A stretch of 64,000 nt of DNA. It comes from Solwaraspora sp. WMMD791 (GTDB lineage: Bacteria > Actinomycetota > Actinomycetes > Mycobacteriales > Micromonosporaceae). Position 1 is the first letter of the stretch. Every line of letters starts with the position of its first letter. The DNA lies in assembly GCF_029581195.1 (NCBI RefSeq), contig NZ_CP120737.1, forward strand, positions 1,798,001 to 1,862,000, given 5' to 3'. Positions 25,755 to 56,638 of this stretch are shown here, piece by piece. The notes under the pieces were generated by a model, which saw only the letters and a program-made list of their open reading frames with translations, had not been told where the DNA came from and made no database searches. The translations under genes and the position numbers were made by a program.

Positions 25755-25862
25755 CTCGGCACCGCGTGACAGTCGACTGAACGTCGACAGAGCCGCGATT
25801 CTGTCAATTTTCACCAGAAACTGAGGTATGGTTGCGGAGTCGTGCGCTAGGAGGCAGGTGCT

Positions 25863-39346: not shown

Positions 39347-39964
39347 GTGCGCAGGTCAGACCGCGTCGTCACCGACGGTGACGTACGCCAGGATCTGGTC
39401 GGCGCCCGGATGCGCCAGTTCCGCAAGGAACAGGGGCTGACCCTGCGCGGACTGGCCGGTCGGGCCAACCTGTCGATCGGCTTCCTGTCGCAGGTCGAGC
39501 GGGGTGTCTCGTCGATCGGGCTGACCGCGCTCAACAGCGTCGCCGCCGCCCTGGACCGGCCGGTCGCCGAGTTCTTCAGCGAGGAGCCGCCCGCGACCGC
39601 CGAGGACCCGCAGGGCAACCTGCCGGTGCACTTCACGCTCACCCGGGCCGACAACGGCGCCACCGAGTACGTCTCCGGTCAGCAGACCTACCGGATGCTC
39701 TCCGACCGTGGCCCCAACCTGGTGCTGGAGCCGATGCTGGTGCACATCGCGCCGGGCGGGCGCCGCGAGGAGGCGTACGGGCACGCCGGCGAGGAGTTCG
39801 CCTACGTCGTGCGGGGCGAGCTGCTGTACGAGGTCGACGGGGTGGAGCACCGGCTCTACCCGGGCGACAGCCTGCACCTGCGGTCGAACACCCCGCACCG
39901 GCTATACAACGACACCGACGAAGTGACCACCGTGGTCTCGGTGGTCACTCCCCGGTTGTTCTGA
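39347..39964 (+). CDS. XRE-cupin transcriptional regulator
   Basis: 205 aa, GTG after GGGAGG. N-terminal helix-turn-helix: GARMRQFRKEQGLTLRGLAGRANLSIGFLSQVERG. C-terminal small-molecule-binding cupin: HIAPGGRREEAYGHAGEEFAYVVRGELLYEVDGVEHRLYPGDSLHLRSNTPHR, with the metal/ligand His and Glu residues kept. This is the PuuR/MocR-unrelated XRE-cupin class that commonly controls nearby catabolic operons. It faces the end of the 13-gene hydantoinase/ABC operon (83 bases apart, convergent) and is the best candidate for its regulator. Confidence 0.9.
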   Translation: MRRSDRVVTDGDVRQDLVGARMRQFRKEQGLTLRGLAGRANLSIGFLSQVERGVSSIGLTALNSVAAALDRPVAEFFSEEPPATAEDPQGNLPVHFTLTRADNGATEYVSGQQTYRMLSDRGPNLVLEPMLVHIAPGGRREEAYGHAGEEFAYVVRGELLYEVDGVEHRLYPGDSLHLRSNTPHRLYNDTDEVTTVVSVVTPRLF

Positions 39965-40047
39965 TTCCGCGCACCGTCGCCGGTCGCCGCCGGAACTGCC
40001 CACTGCTGGGCACCATGTTCACTACCACGTAATAATCGGTGGGCGGC

Positions 40048-41193
40048 TCACCGACCGAGTCGGCGGTCCGTCTCGGCCATCGTCGCCCGCCAGATCGGCG
40101 CGGCCGGGTCGATCACCGAGAAGTGGTCACCGGCCTGCTCCAGCCAGCCCGGATCCTCGCCAGCGGCGCGGGCCGCGGCCACGTACCGGCGGTTGAAGTC
40201 GATCAGGTCCAGGTCGTCGCTGGCACCCTGGACGATCAACTGTGGTACGCCGATCGGCAGCCGGGCCATCGGATCCGAGGCCGCGTACACCGGTGGGATG
40301 TCGTCGCGACCACCGCCGAGCGCGGCGGCGACCGCCCCGGTGCCGACCTGGCGCCGCTGGCCCTCGACCAGGTCCAGCACCCCGGCCAACGACACCGCCA
40401 ACGCCACTGGCACCGGGCCACCGTCGGCGGCCAGCCGCAGCGCCAACTGACCGCCGGCGGAGTGGCCGAACACCGCGACCCGGCCCAGGTCGAGCAGCCC
40501 GTCCGGCACGGCGCCACCGGTCAGCTCCGGCAGGTTGGCCAGCACCGCCAGGCTGGTCGCCACATCGGCGGTGGTCGCCGGCCAGCCGTGCCGGTCCGGC
40601 CGGCGGTACTCCACGTTCCACGCGGCGTAGCCCCGGTCGGCCAGGTCGATGGCGAGCGCGTCCATCAGGTCCGCCGCCCAGATCGACCGCCAGAAGCCGC
40701 CGTGCAGCAGCACCGCCACCGGCAACGACCCGACGTGCACGGCAGCCGAGCCGGTAACCGGCAGCCGCAACTCGCCCCACTGCTCCGGATCCGGACCGTA
40801 CGCGATCCGCAGCGCCGGTCGGCGCAGCCGGTGCACCGCGTGCCGGACCGCCCAGGCCAGCCCCCACACGCCCCGGCCGTACAGGTGGGTCGAGGCCGGG
40901 TGCACCGGCTGCGGGCCGGTGACGTCGGGCTCGTACCACACGGTACGGGCGGCCCAGTCGCCGCCGCTGGTCAGCAACGACCGGACCGCCGGGTCCGGGC
41001 CGGGCAGCAGCACGGCGGCGCTGCCCACGCCGAGGCCGTCGAGCAGTTGTCGCACCTGGCCCGCGTCGGCAGCGACCGCGAAGTCACCGGCCACGCCGAG
41101 TCCGGCCGCCTCAGCGGCGACCAGCCCGTGCAGCAGCGACGGGTCGACGGCCAGCCTCGGCCCGGCGACGACCAGTACGTGATCGACAGTCAT
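40048..41193 (-). CDS. Alpha/beta hydrolase with N-terminal degenerate dehydroquinase-like domain
   Basis: 381 aa, ATG with GGAAGGAG, overlapping the LLM gene by four bases. Residues 150-381 are an esterase/formamidase-like alpha/beta hydrolase: oxyanion motif VAVLLHGGFWRSIW, nucleophile GHSAGGQLAL, acid in GASDDLDLIDF and His in AGDHFSVID. Residues 1-130 look like a worn type II 3-dehydroquinate dehydratase fold: HVLVVAGPRL in place of the LNGPNL strand, VLLPGPDPAVRSLL in place of the INPxAxxHTSxAL strand, and GRGVWGLAWAVRHAVHRL as the closing helix; the catalytic Tyr and His positions are not conserved. Such a fusion probably acts on an acyclic product of the pathway. Last gene of the operon. 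The hydrolase part is secure, the N-terminal assignment tentative. Confidence 0.83.
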   Translation of the reverse strand: MTVDHVLVVAGPRLAVDPSLLHGLVAAEAAGLGVAGDFAVAADAGQVRQLLDGLGVGSAAVLLPGPDPAVRSLLTSGGDWAARTVWYEPDVTGPQPVHPASTHLYGRGVWGLAWAVRHAVHRLRRPALRIAYGPDPEQWGELRLPVTGSAAVHVGSLPVAVLLHGGFWRSIWAADLMDALAIDLADRGYAAWNVEYRRPDRHGWPATTADVATSLAVLANLPELTGGAVPDGLLDLGRVAVFGHSAGGQLALRLAADGGPVPVALAVSLAGVLDLVEGQRRQVGTGAVAAALGGGRDDIPPVYAASDPMARLPIGVPQLIVQGASDDLDLIDFNRRYVAAARAAGEDPGWLEQAGDHFSVIDPAAPIWRATMAETDRRLGR

Positions 41194-42200
41194 CGGGAAC
41201 TCTCCTTCCGCAGCAGCGGCAGCACCTGCGCGCCGAGCAGCTCCACTCCCCGGTCGTCGGTGAGCCCGTGCGGGGTGCCGAACTCGACCCGGCGTACCCC
41301 GGCGTCGATCAACGCCTGCGCCTGGGCGGCGACCTGCGCCGGGGTGCCGGAAAAGGCGAACCGGTCCAGCAGGTCGTCGGGCACCAGCCGGCCCGCGTCG
41401 ACGTCCCGCCCGGCCGCGACCAACGACTTGACCTGCGCCAGCAGCTCGTCGCCGACGGTCACCGTCGGGTCCAGGTCGGCGACGACCGCCAGGTACATGG
41501 CCACTTCGGTGCGGGCCTTCGCCCGGGCCGCCTCGCCGTCGGTGTCGACGACGGTCACCGCGCCGAACACGATCCCGACGTCGTCGACCGGGCGGCCGGC
41601 GGCCTGCGCACCGGGGCGGATCCGGTCGCGGATCACCGGCACCATGTCCGGGTTGGCGCTGCCGCCGACTTTCAGCTCGTCGGCGATCCGGCCGGCGAGC
41701 GCGGCGCCGCGCGGCCCCCAGGCGCCGAGCAGAAGCGGCGGGTCGGGGCGGTGCACGGCGTACCGCAGGGCGGTGTCGGGGGCGAGTTGGAACACCGTAC
41801 CGTCGAACCCGGACGTGTCGCCGCGCAGCAGCCGGTACACCACCTCGGCGGCCTCGGCGAGCGCGGCGAGCGGGCGGGGCTGCGCGATGCCGACCGCGCC
41901 GAGCCAGGTGCCACGGGCCAGACCCAGGTAGGCCCGCCCGTGCGAGGCCAGGTCGAGCGCGGCGAGCTGCCCGGCGATCTCGTACGGGGCCATCGAGTAC
42001 GGGTTGAGGCAGGCTGCCCCGAGCCGGACCCGCCCGGTGGCGGCGGCCATCTCCAACAGCGGGAAGATCGGCGGCTGGTACATCAGGTCACCGAAGACGG
42101 TGAGCACGTCGAAGCCGTACGCCTCGGCGGCGCGGGCCAGCCGGGCGTAGTCGCCGGCGCGTTTGTCGCTCTGCAGCCCGAGTCCGATTTCCACAGACAC
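41190..42200 (-). CDS. LLM-class flavin-dependent oxidoreductase
   Basis: 336 aa TIM-barrel oxidoreductase of the bacterial luciferase-like family, of the F420-dependent (MER-like) branch by length and by the N-terminal VEIGLGLQSDKRAGDYARLARAAEAYGFD. GTG start after GGAGG. Further family stretches are GRVRLGAACLNPYSMAPYEIAGQLAALDLASHGRAYLGLARGTW in one conserved block and the C-terminal FSGTPAQVAAQAQALIDAGV. Either F420-dependent reduction or FMN-dependent ring monooxygenation is possible; in this operon a ring-opening or dehydrogenation step on the imported substrate is plausible. Confidence 0.88.
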   Translation of the reverse strand: MSVEIGLGLQSDKRAGDYARLARAAEAYGFDVLTVFGDLMYQPPIFPLLEMAAATGRVRLGAACLNPYSMAPYEIAGQLAALDLASHGRAYLGLARGTWLGAVGIAQPRPLAALAEAAEVVYRLLRGDTSGFDGTVFQLAPDTALRYAVHRPDPPLLLGAWGPRGAALAGRIADELKVGGSANPDMVPVIRDRIRPGAQAAGRPVDDVGIVFGAVTVVDTDGEAARAKARTEVAMYLAVVADLDPTVTVGDELLAQVKSLVAAGRDVDAGRLVPDDLLDRFAFSGTPAQVAAQAQALIDAGVRRVEFGTPHGLTDDRGVELLGAQVLPLLRKESSR

Positions 42201-42251
42201 GCGAACCTCCGATGGATCAGGGCCCGATCAGGTGGGTCAGGCCGGGTCAGG

Positions 42252-42587
42252 TCAGGTCAGGTCGGCGGAGTTCATCCGCCGTTTGCAGGTCCGTTCGACC
42301 CGCATGACCAGGCCCTCCTCCGGGTCGGGGCAGGCGAACAGGGTGTCGCGTTCCAGCCAGTCCCCCGGCGGCATGTCGCGCTGCTTGGCGGCGAGGAACG
42401 GCAGCACCGAGGCGAGCGCGTACACGCAGAAATGTTTCCCGGCCGGGATCTTCAGGTGTGCGCTGTCGGTCAGCTCGAAGTGGTCGCCGACGGCCATTCC
42501 GCAGACCGACCGGCCGTCGATGCGGTCCACACTGACCCGCAGGTCGTAGACCTCCATGTCACCGCTAGTGGCGTTGGATTCGGTCAC
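42252..42587 (-). CDS. TIGR04076-family small protein
   Basis: 111 aa from GTG 42587, which overlaps the preceding TGA and follows GAGGGAG. The pattern MEVYDLRVSVDRIDG, GMAVGDHFEL, GKHFCVYALASVLPFLAAKQRDM, LFACPDPEEGLVMRVERT fits the TIGR04076 family: small proteins with two or three conserved Cys, found beside metabolic operons, function unknown. Possibly a metal- or substrate-handling accessory protein. A 51-base gap to the next gene is the largest internal gap of the operon. Confidence 0.8.
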   Translation of the reverse strand: MTESNATSGDMEVYDLRVSVDRIDGRSVCGMAVGDHFELTDSAHLKIPAGKHFCVYALASVLPFLAAKQRDMPPGDWLERDTLFACPDPEEGLVMRVERTCKRRMNSADLT

Positions 42588-43585
42588 GTTGACTCCCTCG
42601 GGTCGATCCGGACGATGATCTTTCCGGTGGTGCGTCGGTCGGCCAGGTCGGCGAGCGCGGCCGGGGTGCCGGCCAGGTCGACGACCCGGTTCACCGGGGG
42701 CCGGACCGCGCCGGCCCGGATCAGGTCGAAGATCCGCTGGTACGCCTGGGCGACCGCGTCGGGGCGGGCCCACGGGTACGTCGAGCCCCAGCTGAGCCCG
42801 ATCAGGGTGTGGTTGCCGGCGATCAGCCGCATCGGGTCCACCGGCGGTGGGTTGCCGCCGGCCGCGCCGACCGCCACCAGGCGGCCGTCGACGGCGAGGC
42901 AGTCCAGCGACCGGGTGAACACGTCGCCGCCGACCGGGTCGACGACGACGTCGACGCCGGCACCGCCGGTGGCGTCCCGGACGGCGGCGACGAAGTCACC
43001 GGCCAGGTAGTCGACGGCGACGTCGGCGCCGTTGTCGCGGCACAGCGCGGTCTTCGCCGGCCCGCCGGCGGTGCAGATCACCCGGGCACCCCGGGCGCGC
43101 GCCAGCTGGGTCGCGGCGATGCCGACGCCGCCGGCTCCGGCGTGCACCAGCACCGTGTCGCCGGCGTGGACGCCGGCGCGGTCCAGGGCGAACCAGGCGG
43201 TCTGGTAGGTGACCGGGACGGCGGCGGCGACGACCGGGTCGATGTCGGACGGACGCGGTACGGCGAGCGCCGCGTCGACGGTGACGGTCTCGCCGAGCGC
43301 CCCGTCAGGCAGTGTCGGGCAGGCCACCACGTCGGCCCAGGCCAGCGCCTCGGCGCCGGCGCCGGTGGCGACGACCCGGCCGGCCAGCTCGACACCGGGG
43401 GTGAACGGCGGCGACGGCCGCACCGGGTACTCACCCCGGCAGAGCATCACGTCGAGGAAGTTGAGCCCGACGGCGGTGACCGCGATCCGGACCTGGCCGG
43501 GGCCGGGCGGCGGGTCGTCGGGCAGGTCCGCGACGGTGAGCACCCGGTCGGGTTCGCCGTACCCGGTGGCGATCAGGCGTCTCAT
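42584..43585 (-). CDS. NADPH:quinone reductase-like (MDR) oxidoreductase
   Basis: 333 aa zinc-free medium-chain dehydrogenase/reductase of the quinone oxidoreductase branch. ATG 43585 overlaps the preceding stop. Signatures: VGLNFLDVMLCRGEYP at the N-terminus, VTYQTAWFALDRAG, the nucleotide site VHAGAGGVGIAATQLARARGARVI, and DPVGGDVFTRSL. Likely reduces an enone or quinone-like intermediate with NADPH. Co-translated with the SnoaL-like and TIGR04076 genes. Confidence 0.9.
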   Translation of the reverse strand: MRRLIATGYGEPDRVLTVADLPDDPPPGPGQVRIAVTAVGLNFLDVMLCRGEYPVRPSPPFTPGVELAGRVVATGAGAEALAWADVVACPTLPDGALGETVTVDAALAVPRPSDIDPVVAAAVPVTYQTAWFALDRAGVHAGDTVLVHAGAGGVGIAATQLARARGARVICTAGGPAKTALCRDNGADVAVDYLAGDFVAAVRDATGGAGVDVVVDPVGGDVFTRSLDCLAVDGRLVAVGAAGGNPPPVDPMRLIAGNHTLIGLSWGSTYPWARPDAVAQAYQRIFDLIRAGAVRPPVNRVVDLAGTPAALADLADRRTTGKIIVRIDPREST

Positions 43586-44034
43586 GCCGGGCTGCCGGCC
43601 GGCTGCGGTGCGGGGCCGGCCGCCTGCGGAGCCGGGCCAGCCGGTTCCTGGACCAGTTCCGAATGGTGGTGCACGATCCGCCAGCCGTCGTCGGTGCGGC
43701 GCAGCACGTCGGTGACCCGGCTGTGCTGTGCCGGTCCGCCGCCGGCGGCCACCGCGACCAGGACGTAGCGGGCCACGGCGGCGTCGCCCCACACGTCGAC
43801 CCGCAGCTGCTGCGCGGCGAGCCGGTCGAGCACCGGCCGGCTGCCGGCGGCGTCGCGGCCCGCCCGGTAGGCGTCCAGCTCGGCGCGGGTACGCAGCGGG
43901 CCGGGCAGGTGCGTCTCCCAGGTGGTCACGTCGGCGTGCAGGTGCCGGTCGAACCGGGCCTGGTCACCGGCGAGAAAGGCGTCGTACATGTCGTCGATGC
44001 CGGCGGCGATCTCAGCGGCGGCCTGTTCGGACAT
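43582..44034 (-). CDS. SnoaL/NTF2-like protein
   Basis: 150 aa, ATG after GAGGAG. Cone-shaped NTF2-like fold indicated by IDDMYDAFLAGDQARFDRHLHADVTTWETHLPG, then RVDVWGDAAVARYVL and the closing RRTDDGWRIVHHHSE. The tail is a Pro/Ala repeat (PAGPAPQAAGPAPQPAGSPA) likely to be disordered. Members are isomerases, cyclases or binding proteins; AtzH-like members of this size occur with amidases in s-triazine and cyanuric acid degradation, which fits the amide-related context. Function not provable here. Confidence 0.8.
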   Translation of the reverse strand: MSEQAAAEIAAGIDDMYDAFLAGDQARFDRHLHADVTTWETHLPGPLRTRAELDAYRAGRDAAGSRPVLDRLAAQQLRVDVWGDAAVARYVLVAVAAGGGPAQHSRVTDVLRRTDDGWRIVHHHSELVQEPAGPAPQAAGPAPQPAGSPA

Positions 44035-44051
44035 TCTGCTCCTCACGTGGT

Positions 44052-45320
44052 TCACCAGGCGGCCCAGCCGGTGCGGTCGTCGCGGACCACCCGGCCGCCG
44101 GACATCACCCACCGCACCCCCCGGAACGCCGACGTGTCGGCGAGCGGGTCGGCGTCCATCGCCACCAGGTCGGCGTACTTTCCGGCCTCGACGGTGCCGA
44201 GGTCGGCCTCGGCGCCGAGCCAGCGGACCGGGCCGAGGGTGCCGGCGTACAGGGCCCGGGCGGGGCCGATGCCGCTCTCCGACAGGTACTCCAACTCCCG
44301 GACCGAGGCGTTGGTGCCTTCGAACTGCCAGAACGGCGGCATGTCGCTGCCGAGCAGCACCTCGACCCCGGCTGCGAGGGCCATGGCGTAGCTCTCCAGG
44401 TGCCGGGGGCCGGCGCCGAGGGAGCGGCACTGCATCCACTCCGGTACGCCGAGTTCGTCGAAGAACTCCTTGCAGCGGGTGACCAGCAGGGTGGGGACCA
44501 GCGCGGTGCCGCGGTGCGCCATCCGGGCGGCGACCTCCTCGGTGAGCTGGTAGCCGTGTTCGACACAGTCCAGGCCCAGTTCGACGGCTTCACCGATGAC
44601 CGGCGCCGGGCCGGCGTGGGCGGTGACCTTGCGGCCCCAGGCGTGGGCGGTGTCGATGACGGCGGCCATCTCGTCGGGGAACAGCTGTCGGGTGTGGATC
44701 GACTCGTGTTCGCCGGCGATCCCGCCGGAGATCATCACCTTGATCAGGTCGGCGCCGGCCTTGATCTGGCTGCGGACACCCCGACGGAAACCGTCGGCGC
44801 CGTCGCATTCCAGCGTGTCGGTGCTCTCGTGGCCGTGGCCGCCGGTGCAGACCAGGGCCCGGCCGGCGGTGAAGATCCGTGGCCCGGTGACCCGGCCGGA
44901 GCTGATCGCCTGGCGCAGCGCGAAGTCGGCGTGGTCCTTCTCGGCGACGCAGCGGACCGTGGTGACGCCGCAGAGCAGGGTCCGCCGGGCGCCGTCGGCC
45001 ATGTAGAGGGCCAGCTCGTGCGGGGTCATGTTCTTCACGCTCTGCCCGCCGGCGCCGGGCAGCGACAGCGACAGGTGGGTGTGCATGTTGGTCAACCCGG
45101 GCGTCAGGTACGCCCCGCCGAGGTCGATCTCGGTGACGGAGGCTTCGGCGCGGGCGGCGGCGGTCACTTCGGCGGCCGGGCCGACGGCGACGATCCGGTC
45201 TCCCCGTACCCGCACGGCGGCGTCGGTGACCGGGCCGATGCCGTCGAGGACGCGGGCGTCGACGACGGTGCAGTTGGTCAGGACGGTGTCGACCGGTGCG
45301 GGGTGGGTGGCGGCGCTCAT
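44052..45320 (-). CDS. Metal-dependent amidohydrolase
   Basis: 422 aa, ATG overlapping the HyuB-2 stop. Amidohydrolase superfamily with a binuclear-type site: NMHTHLSL (HxH), carboxylated-Lys candidate in LIKVMISGG, VTAHAGP (His), CVEHGYQL (His) and LLGSDMPPF (Asp). The N-terminal and C-terminal strands form the usual beta-sandwich (LTNCTVVDARVLDG; GTVEAGKYADLVAMDADPL). Nearest to the imidazolonepropionase/prolidase-like group that opens cyclic amides or cleaves N-acyl amino acids. It probably hydrolyses the ring-opened or cyclic substrate of the operon. Confidence 0.88.
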   Translation of the reverse strand: MSAATHPAPVDTVLTNCTVVDARVLDGIGPVTDAAVRVRGDRIVAVGPAAEVTAAARAEASVTEIDLGGAYLTPGLTNMHTHLSLSLPGAGGQSVKNMTPHELALYMADGARRTLLCGVTTVRCVAEKDHADFALRQAISSGRVTGPRIFTAGRALVCTGGHGHESTDTLECDGADGFRRGVRSQIKAGADLIKVMISGGIAGEHESIHTRQLFPDEMAAVIDTAHAWGRKVTAHAGPAPVIGEAVELGLDCVEHGYQLTEEVAARMAHRGTALVPTLLVTRCKEFFDELGVPEWMQCRSLGAGPRHLESYAMALAAGVEVLLGSDMPPFWQFEGTNASVRELEYLSESGIGPARALYAGTLGPVRWLGAEADLGTVEAGKYADLVAMDADPLADTSAFRGVRWVMSGGRVVRDDRTGWAAW

Positions 45321-47080
45321 GCCGGCGTCCGGTCTTCGGGGGTGCTCATCGCGGACCTCTCTGAAAAGTGCGAGGGGACGGGTACGCCGTAGACGTCACG
45401 GGCGGCGGCCGGCGACACGTAACCTTCGGCGACGTCGGCACGTACCGCCTCGGGGTCGCGCCGACGCGGGTCGCCGTGCCCGCCGCCACCGGCGGTGAGC
45501 AGAGTGATCCGGTCACCGGGGACGACCGGGGTCCGTTTGGTGCTGACCCGCTGCTCCCGGTCGGTGCCCGGATGCACGATCACCTGGATCGGGTCCGGTC
45601 GCGCGCCGCCGTCGAGCGCCCACGGCGCCGACTTGGTCTTCTTCACCACCGACAGGAACTCCCCCGGCGTGACGAACCGGATGTCGCGGCGCAGCCCGGG
45701 TCCGCCCCGGTGCCGGCCGGCACCACCGGAGTCGGTGCACACCTCGACCCGTTCGAAGAACATCCCGGTGCGGGCCTCCAGTACCTCGACCGGGGTGTTG
45801 CGGGCCTGGGTCTGGCACAGGTGGTTGGCCGGGCCGAGACCGTCGTGGCGGGGTGTGGCGCCCCAGCCGACCGGGTCGTTGTTGCTGACCGCGAAGAGCT
45901 GCCCGGTGTCCGGGTGGGTGCCGACCATCATGAACCCCGGCACGTCGCCACCGGACGAGGCGGCCAACCGGTCCGGCATGCCCTGGGCGAGTGCCTGGTA
46001 GATCAGCTCCATCGCCACGGTGCCGGTCCACTGGGTGAAGGTGGCGGCCGGGTAGACGGCGTGGAACAGGCTGCCCGGTTCGGCGATCACCCGCAGCGCG
46101 GTGAAGTGCCCGGCGTTGGTCTGCTCGGTCGGGGTGGTCAACGCCTTGAAGGCGACCCGCGCGGTGGCGATCGTCGACCCGTACGGCAGGTTGACCGGCC
46201 CGGCGACGGCGGGTGACGACCCGGTGAAGTCGATGGTGCAGGTGCCGTCGGCGATGGTGACGGTGACCTGCATCCGGATCGGGTCGTCGGTGATGCCGTC
46301 GTCGTCGAGCCAGTCCACGGCGGTCCACGATCCCTGCGGCAGGGCGGCGAGGGCGTCGGCGGTGGACGCCTGCGCGGCGGCGATCGCGGTGTCGACGACT
46401 GATTCGACGGTGGCCAGGCCGAACCGCTCGACCAGCTCGATCAGCCGCCGCTCGCCGGTACGCAGCGCCGCGACCTGGGCGTGCAGGTCACCGATGACGA
46501 GTTCGGGCATCCGCGAGTTGAAGCGGATCAGCTCGATGATCTCGTGCGCCGGCTCGCCCCGGCGGAACACCTTGGTGCCGGGGAAGATGATGCCTTCCTG
46601 ATGCATGTCGGTCGAGTCGAGCACGTACCCCGGGTCCTTGGCCCCCAGGTCCATCCAGTGCGCTCGGACGCAGAGGAACCCGACCAGGGTGCCGTCGCCG
46701 GCCGGCCCGTCACCGCCGACACCGGCCGGCTCCGGCAGGAACACCGGGGCGAACAGGGTGGCGTCGTAGGCGTGCGCCGCGTTCCAGTACGGGTAGTTGA
46801 GCAGCACGATGTCGCCGGCGTGCAGGTTGTCCCGGCCGACGTAGGCTACGCCTTTACGGATCGAGTAGTCGTTGGCGCCGAGGAACCGGCTCAGCCCGGT
46901 GGACTCGGCGACCAGCCGCAGGCGGGCGTCGTAGATGGAGATGCCGAAGTCGTACACCTCGTAGATGACCGGGTTGAACGCGGTGCGCACCAGCGCGGAG
47001 CGCATCTCCTCGGCGGCGGCGACCAGGTAGCTGCGGACCACCTCGGCCGCCGCGCCGTCCACTACAGATCGGCTAGCCAT
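45317..47080 (-). CDS. hyuB: Hydantoinase B/oxoprolinase subunit, second paralogue
   Basis: 587 aa from ATG 47080, overlapping the previous hyuB by eight bases. Hydantoinase B family: VVRSYLVAAAEEMRSALVRTAFNPVIYEVYDFG, GANDYSIRKGVAYVGRDNLHAGDIVLLNYPYWNAAH, DLGAKDPGYVLDSTDMHQEG, and the C-terminal GGAGRHRGGPGLRRDIRF and TAGGGGHGDP. Very similar to its neighbour over the whole length, so the pair arose by tandem duplication. Differences include an insertion after FLPEPA and a distinct tail (VPVPSHFSERSAMSTPEDRTPA). Forms with HyuA an ATP-dependent enzyme acting on a cyclic amide, or carboxylating a ketone. Confidence 0.93.
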   Translation of the reverse strand: MASRSVVDGAAAEVVRSYLVAAAEEMRSALVRTAFNPVIYEVYDFGISIYDARLRLVAESTGLSRFLGANDYSIRKGVAYVGRDNLHAGDIVLLNYPYWNAAHAYDATLFAPVFLPEPAGVGGDGPAGDGTLVGFLCVRAHWMDLGAKDPGYVLDSTDMHQEGIIFPGTKVFRRGEPAHEIIELIRFNSRMPELVIGDLHAQVAALRTGERRLIELVERFGLATVESVVDTAIAAAQASTADALAALPQGSWTAVDWLDDDGITDDPIRMQVTVTIADGTCTIDFTGSSPAVAGPVNLPYGSTIATARVAFKALTTPTEQTNAGHFTALRVIAEPGSLFHAVYPAATFTQWTGTVAMELIYQALAQGMPDRLAASSGGDVPGFMMVGTHPDTGQLFAVSNNDPVGWGATPRHDGLGPANHLCQTQARNTPVEVLEARTGMFFERVEVCTDSGGAGRHRGGPGLRRDIRFVTPGEFLSVVKKTKSAPWALDGGARPDPIQVIVHPGTDREQRVSTKRTPVVPGDRITLLTAGGGGHGDPRRRDPEAVRADVAEGYVSPAAARDVYGVPVPSHFSERSAMSTPEDRTPA

Positions 47081-48761
47081 CGACGTCGACCCCGTAGACG
47101 TCGCGGGCGGCGGCCGGCGACACGTAGCCCTCGGCGACGTCGGCACGCACCGCGTCGGGGTCGCGCTGACGTGGGTCACCGTGCCCGCCGCCACCGGCGG
47201 TGAGCAGGGTGATCCGGTCCCCGGGGACCACCGGGGTCCGTTTGGTGCTGACCCGCTGTTCCCGGTCGGTGCCGGGGTGCACGATCACCTGGTTCGGTTC
47301 CGGCTGGGCGCCGCCGTCGAGCGCCCACGGCGCCGACTTCGTCTTCTTGATCACCGACAGGAACTCCCCCGGCGTGACGAACCGGATGTCGCGACGCAGC
47401 CCGGCACCACCCCGGTGCCGACCGGCACCACCGGAGTCGGTGCGCATCTCGACCCGTTCGAAGAACATCCCGGTGCGGGCCTCGAGGACCTCGATCGGGG
47501 TGATCCGCCCGGTGCTGCCGGAGACGTGGGTGGCGGCGTTCATGCCGTCGTGCTCGCGGGTGGCGCCCCAGCCGACCGGGTCGTTGTTGCTGACTGCGAA
47601 GAGCTGCCCGGTGTCGGGGTGGATGCCGACCATCATGAACCCGGGTACGTCCCCACCGGAGGAGGCCGGCAACCGGTCCGGCATGCCCTGGGCGAGCGCC
47701 TTGAGGATCAGTTCGACGGCGACGATGCCGGTCCACAGGGTGAACGTCGGCTGCGGGTAGACGGCGTGGAACAGGCTGCCCGGTTCGGCCTTGACCCGCA
47801 GCGGCGCGATGGTGCCGGCGTTCGACGGCTGGTCCGGCGAGGTCAACGACTTCAGGATGACCTTGCAGATCGCCTCGGTGGCGCCGTACGGCATGTTGAT
47901 CGGGCCGGGCACCGCCGGTGACGAGCCGGCGAAGTCGACGGTGAAGGTGCCGTCGGCGATGGTCACGGTGACCTGCATCTTCACTGGGTCGTCGGTGATG
48001 CCGTCGTCGTCGACCCAGTCGGTCGCGGTCCATGACCCCTGCGGCAGGGCGGCGAGGGCGGCCCGGCTGCGCGCCTCGCCGTCGGCGATGATCGCCGCGA
48101 CGGCGGCGTCGACCGTGGGCCGGCCGAACTTCGCCAGGATCTCCAGGAAGCGCCGCTCCCCGGTACGCAGCGCGGCGATCTGCGCGTGCAGGTCACCGAG
48201 GACCTCGGCGGGCATCCGCGAGTTGAAGCGGATCAGCTCGTGGATCTCGTGCACCGGCTCGCCCCGCGAGACGACCTTCGTGCCGGGGAAGATCAGCCCT
48301 TCCTGGTGCATGTCGGTGGAGTCGAGCACATAGCCCGGGTCCTTGGCGCCCAGGTCCATCCAGTGCGCGCGGACGCAGAGGAACCCGACCAGGGTGCCGT
48401 CGGCGGCCGGATCGGCCGGGTCCGGCAGGAACACCGGGGCGAACAGGGTGGCGTCCGAGGCGTGCGCCGCGTTCCAGTACGGGTAGTTCAGCAGCACGAT
48501 GTCGCCTCGGTGCAGGTTGTCCCGTCCGACGTACTCGACCCCCTTGGCCAGCGAGAAGTCGTTGGCACCGAGGAAGAACGTCAACCCGGTCGCCTCTGCG
48601 ATCAGCCGCAGGTCGGCGTCGTACATCGACATGCCGAAGTCGTGCACCTCGTAGATGACCGGGTTGAACGAGGTGCGGATCAGGGTGGCCCGCATCTCCT
48701 CGGCGGCGGAGATCAGGTAGCTGCGCACCACCTCGGCGGTGGCGCCGTCCAGTGTGCTCAC
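47073..48761 (-). CDS. hyuB: Hydantoinase B/oxoprolinase subunit, first paralogue
   Basis: 562 aa, GTG overlapping the hyuA stop (GTGA). Full-length HyuB with VVRSYLISAAEEMRATLIRTSFNPVIYEVHDFG, GANDFSLAKGVEYVGRDNLHRGDIVLLNYPYW, GGAGRHRGGAGLRRDIRF and TAGGGGHGDP. The HyuB subunit binds the substrate ring, HyuA handles ATP. It is followed by a second hyuB, so the enzyme may be a heterotrimeric assembly reminiscent of acetophenone carboxylase, which also uses several Hyu-type subunits. Confidence 0.94.
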   Translation of the reverse strand: MSTLDGATAEVVRSYLISAAEEMRATLIRTSFNPVIYEVHDFGMSMYDADLRLIAEATGLTFFLGANDFSLAKGVEYVGRDNLHRGDIVLLNYPYWNAAHASDATLFAPVFLPDPADPAADGTLVGFLCVRAHWMDLGAKDPGYVLDSTDMHQEGLIFPGTKVVSRGEPVHEIHELIRFNSRMPAEVLGDLHAQIAALRTGERRFLEILAKFGRPTVDAAVAAIIADGEARSRAALAALPQGSWTATDWVDDDGITDDPVKMQVTVTIADGTFTVDFAGSSPAVPGPINMPYGATEAICKVILKSLTSPDQPSNAGTIAPLRVKAEPGSLFHAVYPQPTFTLWTGIVAVELILKALAQGMPDRLPASSGGDVPGFMMVGIHPDTGQLFAVSNNDPVGWGATREHDGMNAATHVSGSTGRITPIEVLEARTGMFFERVEMRTDSGGAGRHRGGAGLRRDIRFVTPGEFLSVIKKTKSAPWALDGGAQPEPNQVIVHPGTDREQRVSTKRTPVVPGDRITLLTAGGGGHGDPRQRDPDAVRADVAEGYVSPAAARDVYGVDVDG

Positions 48762-50827
48762 TTCGCCTCCTCCAGGGTGACCAGCAGGTAGCCGTGCGGG
48801 TCGACCTCGACGTGCTGGCCGCTGGGCACCACCGTGGTCGAGGTGCCCTCGTCGACCAGCGCCGGCCCGGCGAACCGGTCCCCCGGGGCCAGCTTCGACC
48901 GGTCGTAGACGGCGAACGGCACCACCTCGCGGGTGCCGAAGTCGAAGGCGTCGCGGTGGCCGAGCAGCGCCCGCGCCGGGTCGCCGTCGCCGGCCGCCGG
49001 TCGGACCAGCTCCGGCCGGGTCGTCCGGCCGATGCCGCGTACCCGCAGGTTGAGGATCTGCAGCCGGTTGCTCATCGCGTGGCCGTACCGGGTGCGGTGC
49101 AGTTCCTCGAACGCCGCCCGGATCGCGGCGCGGTCCAGGTCGGCACCGATGGTGACGATCAGCGAGTGTTCCTGACCGAGGTAGCGCAGCTCCAGCTGGC
49201 GCTCCAGCACCGCCGTCGCCGCGTCGACGCCCTGCTCCACCAGGGAGGCGACCGCTTCGGCTTCGACCTCGACGAAGGTCGACTCCAGCGCGGCCAGGTC
49301 GACGCTGCCCTCCGGGGCGTCGGCGTCCAGGGTGGCCAGCACCGTACGGGAGAAGTCGTCGACGATGTCGGCCGACAGCATCCCCCAGGCGGAGAAGCCG
49401 GACGGGGCGAACGGCACCACCACCTCCCGGATCCCCATCTCGCGGGCCAGCAGTGGGGCCAGCAGCGGACCGGCGCCACCGAAGGCGAGCAGCGAGAAGA
49501 CCCGGGGGTCGTGGCCACGTTCCACGGTGATCTGCCGGACCGCGCCGACGGTACGGGCCAGCAGCACGTCGTAGATTCCGGCCGCGGCGGCGGTCGGGCT
49601 CAGCCCCAGCGGGGTGGCGATCTGTTCGTCGAGCGCGGCCTGCGCCGCCTTGGCCTGCAATCCCATCGTGCCGGCCAGGAACCGGTCCGGGTCGACGTAG
49701 CCGAGCACCACCGAGGCGTCGGTGACGGTCGGCCGCTGCCCGCCCCGGCCGTAGCAGACCGGCCCTGGGTCGGCGCCGGCGCTCTGCGGCCCCACCTTCA
49801 GCAGCCCCCGGTCCAGCCAGGCGATCGAGCCACCGCCGGCGCCGATGGTGCGGATGTCGTAGGTCGGGATCAGCAACGGGAAGTGCTCCAGCTGGGCCTC
49901 GTACGCGGCGACCGGGCTGCCGCGTTCGATCACGCAGGCGTCCAACGACGTACCGCCGATGTCGAAGGTCAGCAGGTTGTCCCGGCCCAGCGCGCCGGCC
50001 AGGTAGGCGGCGCCGACGATGCCGCCGGCCGGGCCGGACAACACGGTGTGCGTCGGCGACGTCTTGGCCATCGTCGAGGTCATCGAGCCGCCACCGGAGC
50101 GCATGATCAGGAACCGGCCGGTGAAACCCCGGGCGGCCAGCCCGGACTCCAGCTCGTCGACGTAACGTTCGAAGATCGGCCGGATGTACGCCTCCAGCAC
50201 GGTGGTGCTGGTCCGCTCGTACTCCCGGTGCTCGCGCACGATGTCTGTCGACACCGAGACGCTGACCTGCGGGTACGCCTCACGGATGAGGGCGGCGGCG
50301 GCCTGCTCGTGGCGCGGGTCGACGTGCGAGTGCAGGAAGCAGACCGCGATCGAGCCGACCCCTTGACCCTCGACCAGGGTACGGGCGGCGGCCCGGACAC
50401 TGTCCGGGTCCAGCTCGGTCACCACCCGGCCCTTGTAGTCGAGCCGGCCGGTGACCCCGGCCGTGTAACGGCGCTTGACCAGACTTTCCGGCCGTTCGTA
50501 CTGGAAGTCGTACATGTGGTCGGCGGGCACGTTGCCCCGGCCGAGCAGGAAGATGTCCCGGAAACCTTCGTTGGTGATGATCCCGGTGGCCCCGCCCCGA
50601 CGTTCCAGTACGGCGTTGAGCCCGAGCGTGGTGCCGTGGATGAACAGCTCCACCTGCGACAGGTCGGTGCCGAGCGCGGTCACCGCATCCAGCACGCCCT
50701 CCCACGGGCGGGCCGGGGTCGTCGACGCCTTGCGGAACCGGACCTGGTTGGTACGGGTGTCGAGCTCCATCGCGTCGACGAAGGTGCCGCCGATGTCGAC
50801 AGCGAGCCGGATGTGTGGTGCGGACAT
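48758..50827 (-). CDS. hyuA: Hydantoinase A/5-oxoprolinase ATPase subunit
   Basis: 689 aa, ATG ten bases after the ABC ATPase stop. N-methylhydantoinase A family: phosphate-1 loop LAVDIGGTFVDAM, IHGTTLGLNAVLERRG, the second ATP loop LLTFDIGGTSLDACVIERG, IGAGGGSIAWLD, VTDASVVLGYVDP and LAFGGAGPLLAPLLA. It activates a cyclic amide or ketone with ATP. The first enzymatic gene after the transporter, so the transport substrate is probably its substrate. Confidence 0.94.
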   Translation of the reverse strand: MSAPHIRLAVDIGGTFVDAMELDTRTNQVRFRKASTTPARPWEGVLDAVTALGTDLSQVELFIHGTTLGLNAVLERRGGATGIITNEGFRDIFLLGRGNVPADHMYDFQYERPESLVKRRYTAGVTGRLDYKGRVVTELDPDSVRAAARTLVEGQGVGSIAVCFLHSHVDPRHEQAAAALIREAYPQVSVSVSTDIVREHREYERTSTTVLEAYIRPIFERYVDELESGLAARGFTGRFLIMRSGGGSMTSTMAKTSPTHTVLSGPAGGIVGAAYLAGALGRDNLLTFDIGGTSLDACVIERGSPVAAYEAQLEHFPLLIPTYDIRTIGAGGGSIAWLDRGLLKVGPQSAGADPGPVCYGRGGQRPTVTDASVVLGYVDPDRFLAGTMGLQAKAAQAALDEQIATPLGLSPTAAAAGIYDVLLARTVGAVRQITVERGHDPRVFSLLAFGGAGPLLAPLLAREMGIREVVVPFAPSGFSAWGMLSADIVDDFSRTVLATLDADAPEGSVDLAALESTFVEVEAEAVASLVEQGVDAATAVLERQLELRYLGQEHSLIVTIGADLDRAAIRAAFEELHRTRYGHAMSNRLQILNLRVRGIGRTTRPELVRPAAGDGDPARALLGHRDAFDFGTREVVPFAVYDRSKLAPGDRFAGPALVDEGTSTTVVPSGQHVEVDPHGYLLVTLEEAK

Positions 50828-50837
50828 CGTCGTGAGG

Positions 50838-53045: not shown

Positions 53046-53050
53046 CGCGG

Positions 53051-53947
53051 TCACCGCCGTTTCGCTTCGGCGCGTTCCTGCAGGCCCTCGCCGAGCAGGC
53101 TGAATCCGAACACGCTGGCCAGCAGGAACAACCCGGGCGGTACGGAGGTCCACCAGCGGCCGGCGACCACGTCGGGTGAGCCGAGGCTGATCATCGACCC
53201 CCATTCGGCGGTCGGCACCGAGATGCCCAGCCCGAGGAAGGACAGCCCGGCCAGGGTCAGCATCGCCCAGCCGCAGCCCAGCGGGGCGATCACCCGGACC
53301 GGGGTGAGGCTGTTGGGCAGCACGTGCCGCCAGAGCACCCCGACCGGGGACGCGCCGGAGGTGACGGCGGCGTCGATGAACGGCAGCTCGCGGACCGAGC
53401 GGACCTCGGCGCGGACCAACCGGGCGTAGCCGGGGGCGTTGACCAGGGCGATGGTGAGGATCAGGTTGACCGTGCCGCCACCGAGCAGGGCTGCCACGGC
53501 CAGGGCGAGGATGAAGGTGGGGAACGCCTGGAAGATGTCGAGCAGCCGCATCAGCACGTCGTCGAGCCAGCCGCCGAAGTAGCCGGCGACCAGGCCCAGG
53601 GTGGTGCCGACGACCACGGCGAGGGCGACGGCGGCGACCGCGATGCCCAGGTCGAGCCGGCCGGCGTGCAGCACCCGGCTCCACACGTCCATCCCGTTGA
53701 TGTCGGTGCCGAGCAGGTGGCTGCCACCGGGTGGCAGCAGCGTACCGGCGGGGTCGATCTCCTCCGGGCCCCACGGCGACAGCAGCGGAGCAGCCAGCGC
53801 GGCCAGGGCAACCACGGCGAGGATCGTCGCGCCGACGGCGATCAGCACGGTGGCGAACCGGCCGCCCCGGGCGGTGCCGGCGGCCACCACCGGCGTGGCG
53901 TCGTCGGCGCTGTCGCCTGGCCCGCCGGCCGCACGCAGGTCAACCAT
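53051..53947 (-). CDS. Dipeptide/oligopeptide-type ABC permease (DppC)
   Basis: 298 aa, ATG sharing one base with the preceding TGA. About six membrane helices; N-terminal LGTDINGMDVWSRVLHAGRLDLGIAV is the DppC/OppC_N signature, and the EAA loop reads DAAVTSGASPVGVLWRHVLPNSLTPV. GLSFLGLGISVPTAEWGSM is the usual C-terminal motif. Inner-membrane half of the importer. Confidence 0.94.
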   Translation of the reverse strand: MVDLRAAGGPGDSADDATPVVAAGTARGGRFATVLIAVGATILAVVALAALAAPLLSPWGPEEIDPAGTLLPPGGSHLLGTDINGMDVWSRVLHAGRLDLGIAVAAVALAVVVGTTLGLVAGYFGGWLDDVLMRLLDIFQAFPTFILALAVAALLGGGTVNLILTIALVNAPGYARLVRAEVRSVRELPFIDAAVTSGASPVGVLWRHVLPNSLTPVRVIAPLGCGWAMLTLAGLSFLGLGISVPTAEWGSMISLGSPDVVAGRWWTSVPPGLFLLASVFGFSLLGEGLQERAEAKRR

Positions 53948-54957
53948 CAGATCTTCACTCTCGGGTCGAGGATCGCGTGCACGACGTCGGCGATCAGGAA
54001 GACGAGGACGTAGCAGACGGCGATGAGCAGTACGGAGGCCTGCACCACCGGGAAGTCGCGGTAGAGCAGCCCGCGCAGCGCCCACTGGCCGAAGCCCTGC
54101 CACGAGTAGACGTACTCGATCAGCACGGTCGAGCCGATCGCGGTGCCGAAGACCAGCGCGGCCAGCGACGGCAGCCGTACCAGGGTGGCCCGGATCAGGT
54201 AGCCGCGGCGCAGCAGCCGCTCGCGCAGCCCGTGCGCGGCGGCGGCGGTGTACGCCTCGGAGTGCAGCACCTCCAGGGCGGAGGCGCGGACGCTGCGCAG
54301 CAGCGGCGCCACCACCACGATCGCCAGGGTGGCGACCGGCAACGCCAGGTGCCCGAGCGCGGAGGTGAACGCCGGCCCGTTGGCGGTCAGTGCGGCGTCG
54401 ATCAGTTCGGCGCCGGTGATCGGGGTGAGGTTGGTGTCCGGGTCGACCCGGCCGCTGGGGGCCGGGAACCAGCCGAGCATGCTGTAGCCGACCAGGACCA
54501 GCACCAGGCCGAGCCAGAACTCCGGCACCGAGTTGCCGATCAGGGCGAGCACCCGGATGCCGTGGTCGGCGGCCCGGTCGGCGCGACGCGCCGACCAGAT
54601 GCCGCCGACCACGGCGATGAGCACCGCCACGGTGACCGCCAGTACCACCAGTTGCAGGGTGGGCCCGACCCGCAGGGCCAGTTCACCGGCGACCGCGTTG
54701 CCGCTCTGGATCGAGGTGCCGAGGTCGCCGGTGGCCAGCCCACCCAGGTAGTCCAGGAACTGTTTCCACAGTGGCTGGTCCAGGCCGTAGCGGGCACGGG
54801 CCGCCGCGGCCTCCACCTCGGTGGCGTTGGGGCCGAGGATGGTCCGGATCGGGTCCCCGGGCAGGACCCGGACCAGGACGAAGGTCGCGACGATCACGCC
54901 GAGCAGCACCGGGACGAGTTGCAGCAGCCGGCGGGCGACGAAGCGGGCGATGCGCAT
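53947..54957 (-). CDS. Dipeptide/oligopeptide-type ABC permease (DppB)
   Basis: 336 aa, ATG start. N-terminal RFVARRLLQLVPVLLGVIVATFVLVRVLPGDP is the DppB signature, GDLGTSI follows, and the EAA loop is EAYTAAAAHGLRERLLRRGYLIRATLV. C-terminal YSWQGFGQWALRGLLYRDFPVVQA is standard. Pairs with DppC; 22 bases after the binding-protein gene. Confidence 0.94.
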   Translation of the reverse strand: MRIARFVARRLLQLVPVLLGVIVATFVLVRVLPGDPIRTILGPNATEVEAAAARARYGLDQPLWKQFLDYLGGLATGDLGTSIQSGNAVAGELALRVGPTLQLVVLAVTVAVLIAVVGGIWSARRADRAADHGIRVLALIGNSVPEFWLGLVLVLVGYSMLGWFPAPSGRVDPDTNLTPITGAELIDAALTANGPAFTSALGHLALPVATLAIVVVAPLLRSVRASALEVLHSEAYTAAAAHGLRERLLRRGYLIRATLVRLPSLAALVFGTAIGSTVLIEYVYSWQGFGQWALRGLLYRDFPVVQASVLLIAVCYVLVFLIADVVHAILDPRVKI

Positions 54958-54979
54958 GAGGGGTGGTCGCCGCCGGTGG

Positions 54980-56638
54980 TCAGGCCGAGGCGCTCAGGTA
55001 GCGCAGCCGGGCCAGCCCGTCCATGGGCTGGACCCAGCCGGCGACCTGTTCGCGGACCGGCAGGTTGAAGTTGGGCTGGCAGAGGATCACCCACGGCACG
55101 TCGGCGGCGAGGATCTCCTGGACCCGCAGCCACAGTTCGTTACGCTCGTTGGCGTCCACGATGGTGTGCGACCGCTCGTAGATCTCCTCCAGCTCCGGGT
55201 TGACGTAGTTGGAGTAGTTGAGGTTGGCACCGTCGACGAAGCTGGTCGCCAGCATGTACTCGACGTCGTTGACCCACAACTGCCCGGAGGTGATCTGCAG
55301 CGGGATGTTCTTCTGCTGCCGCCGCTCGGCCAGGGTGGCCGGGTCCAGCGGGGTCAGTTCCAGCTCGATGCCGACCTTGCGAGCCTCGCTCTGGACCAGC
55401 ACGGCGATCTGCTGCTGGGTGTCGTTGTCGGTGGCGTAGACCAGCTCTGAGGTGATCTGGTCGACCCCGGCGGCGGCGAGCGCGGCGCGGGCGGCGTCCG
55501 GGTCGTAGCCGTACGGGTACCCGCGCTCGTCGTAGCCGGGCATGTCCAGCGGCACCAGGCTCTTCGTCGGGCGGGCGTCGCCGCCGTACACGTTGTTGAT
55601 GATCTGCTCGTACGGCACCGCGTGGGCCAGGGCCTTGCGCACGTCGACGTTGTCGAACGGCGCGGTGGTCACCGACATCTGGATCGCGACCTGTTCGTTG
55701 CTGGCCGCCGAGATGACCTTGATGCCGTCGGCGGACTTCAGATCGGCGATGTCACGCTGGCTGATACCCAGCGCCACGTCGATGTCGCCGGCCTGCAGCT
55801 GCAGCCGCTGGTTGGCGGCGGCCGGCACCACCGAGATCCGGATGGTCCGGGCCTGTGCCGGGTCGGGGCCGGGGTAGCCGTCGTTGGCGGTGAGCACGAT
55901 CTCCTGGCCCTGCACGGCCCGCTCGACGTTGAAGTAGCCGCCGGTCGGCGCGTTGTTGGCGAACCACTCGGTGGCCCACGGGTCGGCGTCGGTGGCGTGC
56001 TTCTTCGCTTCCTCGGAGTCGAACACGTACAGCGAGATGGCCTGGATCTGCCGGGTCAGCGCGCTGGGGAAGGCCTGGGTGAACTGCACCGTGTAGTCGT
56101 CGACGACGGTGATCTGGTCCGGTTCGGTCAGCCCGATGGTCCGGTAGATACCGGCCACGTTGGCCTGGGCGGCGAACGCCCGGTCCTTGGACCACTTGAC
56201 GTCGGCGGCGGTCATCTCGTTGCCGCTGGCGAAGGTGACGCCCTGACGCAGCTTGAGGGTCCAGACCGTCTGGTCGGCGTTGGGCTCGAACGACTCCGCG
56301 AAGGTGGCCACGATGTTCTCGGTGTCGAGGATCCGGGATCCGTCGGCCTCGGTCACCCCGTAGTCGATCATGTAAGGGAAGACGTTCTTGTACAGCATCA
56401 GGGCGACCGGGTCGAAGCCCACGAAGTCCTGGTCCCAGCTGCTGAGGTAGCTGGAAACGGCGATGCGCAGGGTGTCGGTGCCGGTGCCCGGCGAGGCGTT
56501 GCCGGAGCTGTCGGTGCGCGACCCGGAGGCGCAGGCACCGGTGGCGAACAGCAACGTGCCGATGCCGCCTAGCTGGAGCACCGACCGGCGGGAGAGGGCG
56601 GGCGAGGCGGATTCGCCACGCGGAGAGGTACCAGCCAT
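54980..56638 (-). CDS. ABC substrate-binding lipoprotein, family 5
   Basis: 552 aa, ATG after GGAGG at nine bases. Tat-like RR start (SRRSVLQLGGIGTLLF) and a lipobox ending ATGAC at Cys36, so it is an exported lipoprotein. SBP_bac_5 features: ATFAESFEPNADQTVWTLKLRQGVTFASGNEMTAADVKWS, then GTGGYF-like APTGGYFNVER, VRKALAHAVPYEQIIN and PYGYDPDAARAALAAAGV. Captures the external substrate for the DppBC-ATPase importer. First gene of the 13-gene operon. The long family-5 pocket accepts peptides but also heterocycles and metal chelates. Confidence 0.93.
   Translation of the reverse strand: MAGTSPRGESASPALSRRSVLQLGGIGTLLFATGACASGSRTDSSGNASPGTGTDTLRIAVSSYLSSWDQDFVGFDPVALMLYKNVFPYMIDYGVTEADGSRILDTENIVATFAESFEPNADQTVWTLKLRQGVTFASGNEMTAADVKWSKDRAFAAQANVAGIYRTIGLTEPDQITVVDDYTVQFTQAFPSALTRQIQAISLYVFDSEEAKKHATDADPWATEWFANNAPTGGYFNVERAVQGQEIVLTANDGYPGPDPAQARTIRISVVPAAANQRLQLQAGDIDVALGISQRDIADLKSADGIKVISAASNEQVAIQMSVTTAPFDNVDVRKALAHAVPYEQIINNVYGGDARPTKSLVPLDMPGYDERGYPYGYDPDAARAALAAAGVDQITSELVYATDNDTQQQIAVLVQSEARKVGIELELTPLDPATLAERRQQKNIPLQITSGQLWVNDVEYMLATSFVDGANLNYSNYVNPELEEIYERSHTIVDANERNELWLRVQEILAADVPWVILCQPNFNLPVREQVAGWVQPMDGLARLRYLSASA

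Follow-up and report, generated by a model that had tools for sequence, protein, structure and literature searches.

Organization of the hyu Operon

The 64,000-nucleotide stretch of Solwaraspora sp. WMMD791 analyzed here (contig NZ_CP120737.1, positions 1,798,001 to 1,862,000; hereafter the window) carries an operon of thirteen genes, the hyu operon, which combines a peptide-type ATP-binding cassette (ABC) importer with HyuA, two HyuB proteins, an amidohydrolase and several accessory proteins (Table 1). All thirteen genes are on the minus strand, from 56638 down to 40048, and the distances between them are 22, -1, 5, 10, -4, -8, -4, 17, -4, -4, 51, and -4 bases, that is, six overlaps of 4 or 8 bases, one of 1 base, and gaps of at most 51 bases. 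Pfam and NCBIfam searches and the computed distances bear out the families, order, strand, and tight spacing that a preliminary description had read from the sequence. That description also gave the operon its own XRE-cupin regulator; the gene is real, but it is encoded on the plus strand, convergent with the operon and 83 bases from its end, and is not part of the operon transcript.

The HyuA and HyuB proteins carry the domains expected of their superfamily (PF05378, PF01968, PF19278, and two PF02538, all above cut-off), and HyuA is the sole PF01968 match in the genome (E up to 0.001). A tree of 70 HyuB rows, with some long branches and several deep forks left open, placed HyuB1 and HyuB2 of the window in separate, well-supported clades, each spanning Micromonosporaceae and Streptosporangiaceae. 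The B2 genes of Herbiconiux group with the B2 clade, while loci with a single HyuB carry a B1 or B2 name by better match only. Since the D, H, and H..D motifs aligned with solved HyuB chains are retained in both paralogues, both may be catalytic. The clade has the motif NYPYW..AH..D (NLPYW in the HyuB1 of Nocardioides locus L066), at which both solved chains read NDP.

The best NCBIfam models for HyuA and both HyuB proteins are those of caprolactamase, the CapA/CapB pair of Pseudomonas jessenii, likewise a HyuA/HyuB pair, which opens a cyclic amide in an ATP-dependent manner (PMC6061476). However, the scores are about half of the curated equivalog cut-off or less (509 against 1000 for HyuA, 207 and 200 against 1000 for the HyuB proteins), and the operon differs from caprolactamase in having two HyuB genes, a dedicated peptide-type importer, an amidohydrolase, and a kynurenine linkage. 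N-methylhydantoinase and 5-oxoprolinase (PDB 7hk5 and 6yra) are remote, full-length homologues of HyuA and HyuB; in contrast to these systems, Pfam and NCBIfam recognized no N-carbamoylase or hydantoin-racemase family among the thirteen genes, the rest of the genome not being searched, and the HyuB motif differs as described above. The hydantoins, creatinine, and purine or pyrimidine products named as possible substrates in the preliminary description thus find no support in the gene content. A haloarchaeal plasmid (L117) encodes a peptide-type importer, two HyuAB pairs, and a protein annotated as a member of the Asp/Glu racemase family; one of its HyuA proteins is 55% identical to that of the window.

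The closest PDB relatives of the substrate-binding lipoprotein (SBP) are peptide- and dipeptide-binding proteins. The ATPase gene is a single reading in the window; in L033, L061, L062, L064, L066, and other loci the ATPase gives two separate matches, perhaps two separate genes. The amidohydrolase shows long-range similarity to superfamily dipeptidases, its PDB relatives including arginine carboxypeptidase Cc2672, Xaa-Pro dipeptidase, prolidase, and ochratoxinase, but it remains under the NCBIfam equivalog cut-off for Xaa-Pro dipeptidase (240 against 500 bits). As for the accessory proteins, the SnoaL-like protein has an invariant HHH in an alignment of 17 sequences, and the LLM protein has methylene-H4MPT reductases as its closest relatives both in NCBIfam (148 against a cut-off of 276) and in the PDB. 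The structure model of the TIGR04076 protein (pLDDT 85.4) reached a best match of only E 0.08 against the PDB.

Table 1. Features of the hyu operon, its flanks, and the kynurenine cluster (window coordinates).
Feature	Position	Strand	Basis
SBP, substrate-binding lipoprotein, family 5 (Dpp/Opp type), 552 amino acids	54980..56638	-	PF00496, 246 bits
Permease, DppB-like	53947..54957	-	PF00528
Permease, DppC-like	53051..53947	-	PF00528
Fused DppD-DppF-type ATPase, 735 amino acids	50838..53045	-	Two ABC_tran and two oligo_HPY stretches
HyuA, predicted ATP-dependent cyclic-amide hydrolase subunit	48758..50827	-	PF05378/PF01968/PF19278
HyuB1	47073..48761	-	PF02538, 527 bits
HyuB2, old paralogue of HyuB1	45317..47080	-	PF02538
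Dipeptidase/prolidase-like metal amidohydrolase	44052..45320	-	PF01979
SnoaL-like protein	43582..44034	-	PF13474
MDR (quinone-reductase-like) oxidoreductase	42584..43585	-	PF00107
TIGR04076 protein	42252..42587	-	TIGR04076, 66.5 bits (NCBIfam subfamily cut-off 33)
LLM-class oxidoreductase, Mer-like	41190..42200	-	PF00296
Last gene: alpha/beta hydrolase, putatively kynurenine-formamidase-like, variable N-terminal domain	40048..41193	-	PF07859/PF20434
XRE-cupin regulator	39347..39964	+	HTH_31 and Cupin_2; convergent with operon
Palindrome GTTCGATACCATCGAAC, candidate regulator operator	39278..39294		Upstream of XRE
Candidate operon promoter, TTGTTCA ... GATAGAAC core	56748..56776	-	Promoter role inferred
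Tryptophan 2,3-dioxygenase (TDO)	24281..25174	-	PF03301, sole match in genome
Rest of kynurenine meta-cleavage cluster	14569..24280	-	Pfam; individual start codons provisional
Lrp/AsnC-type regulator, divergent from TDO	25290..25755 (approximate ends)	+	95% identical to L131 segment

Conservation across Actinobacteria

A scan of a genome collection (84,980 species) with HyuA yielded 46 loci, of which 40 have a HyuA at least 70% identical to that of the window; the 37 of these that hold at least 20 kb are treated here as full relatives. The short loci L057, L060, and L073 and the loci of lower identity L067, L077, L079, L080, L082, and L083 were left out. Gene presence was scored by tblastn with identity thresholds inside the fetched stretch, and the counts are therefore lower bounds. 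HyuA, HyuB1, and the amidohydrolase were detected in all 37 full relatives, and the SBP, both permeases, the ATPase, and the SnoaL-like protein in 36 each. Two HyuB genes occur in 31, TIGR04076 and LLM in the identical 30, the last hydrolase in 27, and the MDR gene, which appears to be optional, in 22. The XRE-cupin gene was found in 33; in L076 and L081 it lies farther out than the counted stretch (L116, L088). In Herbidospora galbida (L039), TIGR04076 and LLM are about 13 kb off, beside TDO (L107).

All fourteen genes, regulator included, are found together in 20 of the 37 full relatives, and ten other open reading frames kept for window positions 30001-64000 have no match in the 52 loci compared (E up to 1e-10), so that the gene order is kept far beyond chance. 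The preliminary description had allowed that the genes might not co-occur elsewhere; instead, the set is conserved in five actinobacterial families: Micromonosporaceae, Streptosporangiaceae, Pseudonocardiaceae, Microbacteriaceae, and Nocardioidaceae. In Herbiconiux, Leucobacter, and Nocardioides (L061, L062, L064, L066) and in genome G066 (L033), the XRE-cupin gene directly precedes the SBP and shares its strand instead of standing at the 3' end, which indicates that the regulator stayed with the operon through rearrangement.

Two loci showed peculiarities. One Micromonosporaceae metagenome-assembled genome holds the operon twice, on two contigs of one bin (L059 and L060), with SnoaL detected in neither. 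In Phytohabitans suffuscus, the HyuA and amidohydrolase matches are split (L063:10001-12035 and 15370-16595), which may reflect frameshifts in the record or real decay.

Linkage to Tryptophan and Kynurenine Breakdown

A cluster matching the tryptophan-kynurenine-3-hydroxyanthranilate meta-cleavage pathway is located 15 kb from the operon, inside the window. Besides TDO it encodes KynU, a KMO-like FAD protein, an aldehyde dehydrogenase, two FAA-hydrolase-family proteins, an acetaldehyde dehydrogenase, a DmpG-like aldolase, a RidA family protein, 3-hydroxyanthranilate dioxygenase (3HAO), and an ACMSD-like amidohydrolase 2 protein. The pathway names KMO and ACMSD are our reading of the sequences, and we take the set to be the meta-cleavage route. 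The link between this cluster and the operon, set out below, had been overlooked in the preliminary description, although both lie in the same window. To our knowledge, the meta-cleavage pathway as described includes no HyuAB, importer, LLM, or TIGR04076 genes, and among the matches listed for open-licence PMC papers none ties HyuA or HyuB to a tryptophan or kynurenine cluster.

The linkage recurs in other genomes. In a set of 150 genomes of the family (E at most 1e-200 for HyuA, 1e-15 for TDO, and 1e-60 for LLM), this HyuA is present in 18 and LLM in 29, including all 18. For 15 of the 18 genomes and five of the seven genera, no more than 40 kb separates HyuA from a TDO on its strand. If a chance of 1.2% is assumed for each genome, the binomial probability is 1e-26 for the genomes, a value far too small owing to their relatedness, and 5e-9 for the genera. 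Among 19 full relatives searched over the whole genome, a group that overlaps the family set, TDO is near the operon in 14 (L039, L047, L048, L054, L055, L058, L061, L063, L065, L066, L068, L069, L076, and L081); in two of these it is on the opposite strand, at a distance of about 13 kb (L039) and about 6.5 kb (L061). The other 18 were covered within the fetched stretch, inside which 16 of the 37 full relatives hold kynurenine genes.

The layouts of this neighborhood vary. TDO and an Lrp/AsnC-type gene stand at the edge of the operon in relatives; the label of the Lrp/AsnC-type gene in the window rests on an L131 open reading frame judged by eye and on a counterpart in L048 named by Pfam. In Dactylosporangium (L106, L111) the kynurenine cluster directly precedes the SBP, whereas TDO lies just past XRE in Phytohabitans and in Paractinoplanes relatives, in the latter with the Lrp-type gene between. 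In Nocardioides (L066, L105), KynU-KMO-TDO come a short distance past the last gene, and in Rhizohabitans (L054) TDO-KMO are found between LLM and XRE. Rathayibacter (L104) carries a different TDO (36% to that of the window), KynU, and a homologue of the hydrolase domain of the last gene (38%) upstream of the operon, and Herbiconiux daphne (L128) a different TDO (34%), KynU, and such a homologue (33%) near it. In genome G264 of the same genus (L131), TDO starts 2.7 kb from XRE; two parts of the window do not align with G264, one at about 25756-27777 that includes an AbiL-type pair and one of about 9.5 kb (29029-38572), between the kynurenine cluster and XRE, that contains most of the gene for a LamG-domain protein as well as a PAP2-family protein gene.

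The Last Gene of the Operon

The preliminary description read the last gene as a dehydroquinase-like domain fused to a hydrolase that performs a final hydrolysis. The hydrolase half stands. Its model (pLDDT 90.9) has an alpha/beta fold with a Ser-Asp-His triad and an HGG motif, and Ser245, Asp326, and His357, together with an HGGF motif, are invariant in 23 aligned sequences, Asp326 being the presumed catalytic Asp; these features are not specific to kynurenine formamidase. The dehydroquinase-like half was not confirmed, as the Pfam match to type II 3-dehydroquinase is missing in six of six homologues (E up to 10). The N-terminal domain matches no Pfam family in the same six at this threshold, and no PDB sequence under E 0.48, these being sequence searches with no fold comparison of the domain by itself. 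The profile of the last gene matches kynurenine formamidase 4e11 at E 4.8e-6, with other esterases scoring better. A stronger argument than the sequence or fold match is the TDO-KynU neighborhood, in which homologues of the hydrolase domain occur in two genera, Rathayibacter and Herbiconiux. The gene is better read as encoding a putative kynurenine-formamidase-like step.

Related Clusters without HyuAB and Sister Clades

In five Micromonosporaceae genomes (L122-L126), the same amidohydrolase (56-85%) occurs with TIGR04076, LLM, and importer genes, and the 17-19 kb fetched show no HyuAB match. L122, L124, and L126 also have a distantly related XRE-cupin gene (34-35%), and the L124 cluster sits at TDO-KynU-KMO. 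Herbidospora has a second cluster (L107), beside and not in place of its hyu operon, in which the importer, an XRE-cupin gene (35%), TIGR04076, and LLM are followed by TDO-KynU-KMO, with an Lrp-type gene between LLM-TIGR04076 and TDO. The tight pairing of LLM and TIGR04076, seen also beside TDO where HyuAB is missing, suggests that these two proteins may alter the indole or aniline ring. DUF885 proteins are peptidase-like, and one of them (PF05960, 429 bits) is encoded between SnoaL and LLM in L126; L125 has a DUF885-like reading with the motif HEGLPGHH between the amidohydrolase and SnoaL, and Herbidospora a DUF885-SnoaL-RidA fusion upstream of the hyu operon. No gene of this type was recognized in L122, L123, or L124.

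Sister clusters with a HyuA of about 50% identity (L034, L035, L036, L077) have a gene for a DHDPS-family protein in the neighborhood of HyuAB and of a related amidohydrolase. L035 and L077 additionally encode FAD oxidoreductases, L036 encodes a PF04199 cyclase, and homologues of the DHDPS and FAD proteins (37-45%) recur in Leucobacter locus L064, which belongs to the main clade. The DHDPS and FAD oxidoreductase set resembles that of hydroxyproline catabolism, a likeness that we do not take as an identification. This candidate was rejected, as the proline-racemase family PF05544 was found in two of eight genomes (G059, G087), in both off the contig of the operon, and NCBIfam placed none of the tested genes above cut-off.

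Proposed Function and Alternative Explanations

A link between the operon and the kynurenine pathway is likely. Uptake and ATP-dependent opening of a cyclic amide, as suggested in the preliminary description, is supported in part and still accounts best for the first seven genes. From the gene families, their order, and the linkage we infer a substrate-feeding module of tryptophan/kynurenine catabolism, a proposal that we rate as evenly balanced between right and wrong. The dipeptide-type importer would take up a small compound with a cyclic amide bond, which HyuA with HyuB1/HyuB2 would activate with ATP and open. The dipeptidase-like metal amidohydrolase would then cut the opened product to a tryptophan- or kynurenine-type amino acid, a kynurenine-formamidase-like activity would come from the last gene, and the TDO-KynU-KMO-3HAO genes nearby would carry the product to central metabolism. 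SnoaL, MDR, TIGR04076, and LLM could perform redox or isomerization steps, not yet placed in this order. That the substrate is a cyclic tryptophan-type amide has about even chances.

A more specific form of this proposal, rather doubtful in our estimate, is that HyuA/B1/B2 is an ATP-dependent hydrolase of tryptophan-containing diketopiperazines; such a compound would first be imported, its ring opened, and the resulting dipeptide split, after which tryptophan would drain into the kynurenine pathway. We know of no reference gene for a cyclic dipeptide hydrolase. Whole cells of Leifsonia sp. K3 and Microbacterium sp. 40A hydrolyze cyclic dipeptides (PMC3852281), and both belong to Microbacteriaceae, the family of the operon carriers Herbiconiux, Leucobacter, and Rathayibacter. 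No enzyme or gene is identified for these strains, and the word Trp does not appear, in that paper, which calls the responsible enzymes unclear as of 2013 and reports two recombinant enzymes that cleaved none of nine cyclic dipeptides, with ATP not mentioned. It has been suggested that many HyuA/HyuB genes are misnamed and that some genes annotated as oxoprolinase may be cyclic dipeptide hydrolases (PMC6061476). HyuA/HyuB genes are common in bacteria, and here the comparison of genomes connects one well-defined clade, along with its importer and regulator, to the breakdown of tryptophan and kynurenine. The possible substrates are thereby narrowed to a few that can be tested, and the TIGR04076, SnoaL-like, and Mer-like LLM proteins gain a pathway context. 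The operon is a concrete candidate for cyclic dipeptide hydrolysis; if this were true, it would be the first genetic system for cyclic dipeptide catabolism, with the DUF885-containing sister clusters serving another amide.

Several observations weigh against the feeding of kynurenine catabolism by the operon. Most genomes of the family have a TDO (129 of 150), and the linkage is missing in three of the 18 family genomes (G091, G185, G217). TDO is on another contig in L062, as is the best TDO match in L038 and L044, where the contigs of further weaker matches were not placed; it is megabases away on the same contig in Kibdelosporangium (L043) and about 320 kb away in G066, and the whole-genome search found no TDO match in Leucobacter (L064), which has the operon. 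The HyuAB-less clusters L122 and L126 are far from TDO, and in L123 and L125 TDO is on other contigs. A simple peptide-to-amino-acid scheme offers no step for LLM, MDR, SnoaL, or TIGR04076. By fold, kynurenine formamidase 4e15 ranks 41 among the best 50 matches listed for the last gene, behind esterases, and the formamidase could instead be one of three PF04199 proteins encoded at other places in this genome.

Such exceptions would fit an operon that serves an unrelated lactam, imide, or hydantoin and is close to the kynurenine genes as part of a shared catabolic gene island rather than a shared pathway. This is consistent with a HyuA-TDO distance of 12-40 kb in the genus of the window, with the two window stretches between HyuA and TDO that are missing from G264, with operons lacking TDO (Leucobacter) or unlinked to it (G091, G185, Kibdelosporangium), and with the haloarchaeal HyuA, whose annotated Asp/Glu racemase neighbor, adjoining together with a second HyuAB, may be a hydantoin racemase. 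However, close adjacency in several layouts and with non-orthologous TDOs, the LLM-TIGR04076 pair beside TDO in HyuAB-less clusters (L124; L107), and the lack of carbamoylase or racemase families among the thirteen genes argue for a shared pathway, and we consider a mere island unlikely.

Less likely still is a substrate of the oxidized indole lactam type (oxindole or dioxindole, for example from indole acetate or oxindolyl-alanine), from which HyuAB would release an anthranilic or kynurenine-type product. Some enzymes of the TDO superfamily form oxindoles, and the released products would join the same lower pathway. Oxindoles are cyclic amides, and HyuAB enzymes such as caprolactamase open lactams with ATP (PMC6061476), but the dipeptide-type importer, the dipeptidase-like amidohydrolase, and the DUF885 gene of the sister clusters would be left unexplained. 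The main text of a preprint on the degradation of indole acetate (IAA; PMC12633357) contains no hydantoin or oxoprolinase terms. Auxin (IAA) degradation itself was rejected as a candidate, lactam, IadB, and hydrolase also being absent from that main text. The least probable explanation, which we regard as very remote, makes HyuA/B1/B2 an ATP-dependent carboxylase like acetophenone carboxylase, acting on a kynurenine-derived aryl ketone. Kynurenine is an aryl ketone and the enzymes share a superfamily, the NCBIfam model ApcC giving 333 bits to HyuA; yet the scores are far under the equivalog cut-offs (333 against 1500, 227 against 1250), the caprolactamase alpha model scores higher although itself under its cut-off, the genome has one HyuA only, and no small metal subunit was recognized in the operon.

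Regulatory Elements

Of 34 loci, 18 keep the palindrome GTTCGATANNATCGAAC upstream of XRE with no more than one mismatch and the other 16 show at least three; the copy in the window is the only site in the 6.93-Mb genome at up to one mismatch. The pattern GTTC-N(4-9)-GAAC occurs in 28 of 69 upstream regions (mean 1.0 and maximum 4 in mononucleotide shuffles), 20 of the 28 being upstream of XRE. Acting at the palindrome at 39278-39294, the XRE-cupin protein probably regulates its own gene, and perhaps also the operon. Within 260 bases upstream of the SBP, TTGTTCA, each time followed by [AG]TAGAAC, is found in 25 of 35 loci. The SBP promoter was rejected as an XRE operator, since its motif differs from the GTTC-N(4-9)-GAAC upstream of XRE.

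Other Genes between the Kynurenine Cluster and the Operon

A class I/II aminotransferase gene (27761-28945, plus strand) adjoins the kynurenine cluster, is retained between TDO and XRE in G264, and could belong to the same catabolic island. Between it and the Lrp-type gene stands a pair encoding an AbiLi-like AAA ATPase and an AbiLii-like protein (25863-27764, plus strand; PADLOC 3e-90 and 4e-27), a candidate anti-phage system.

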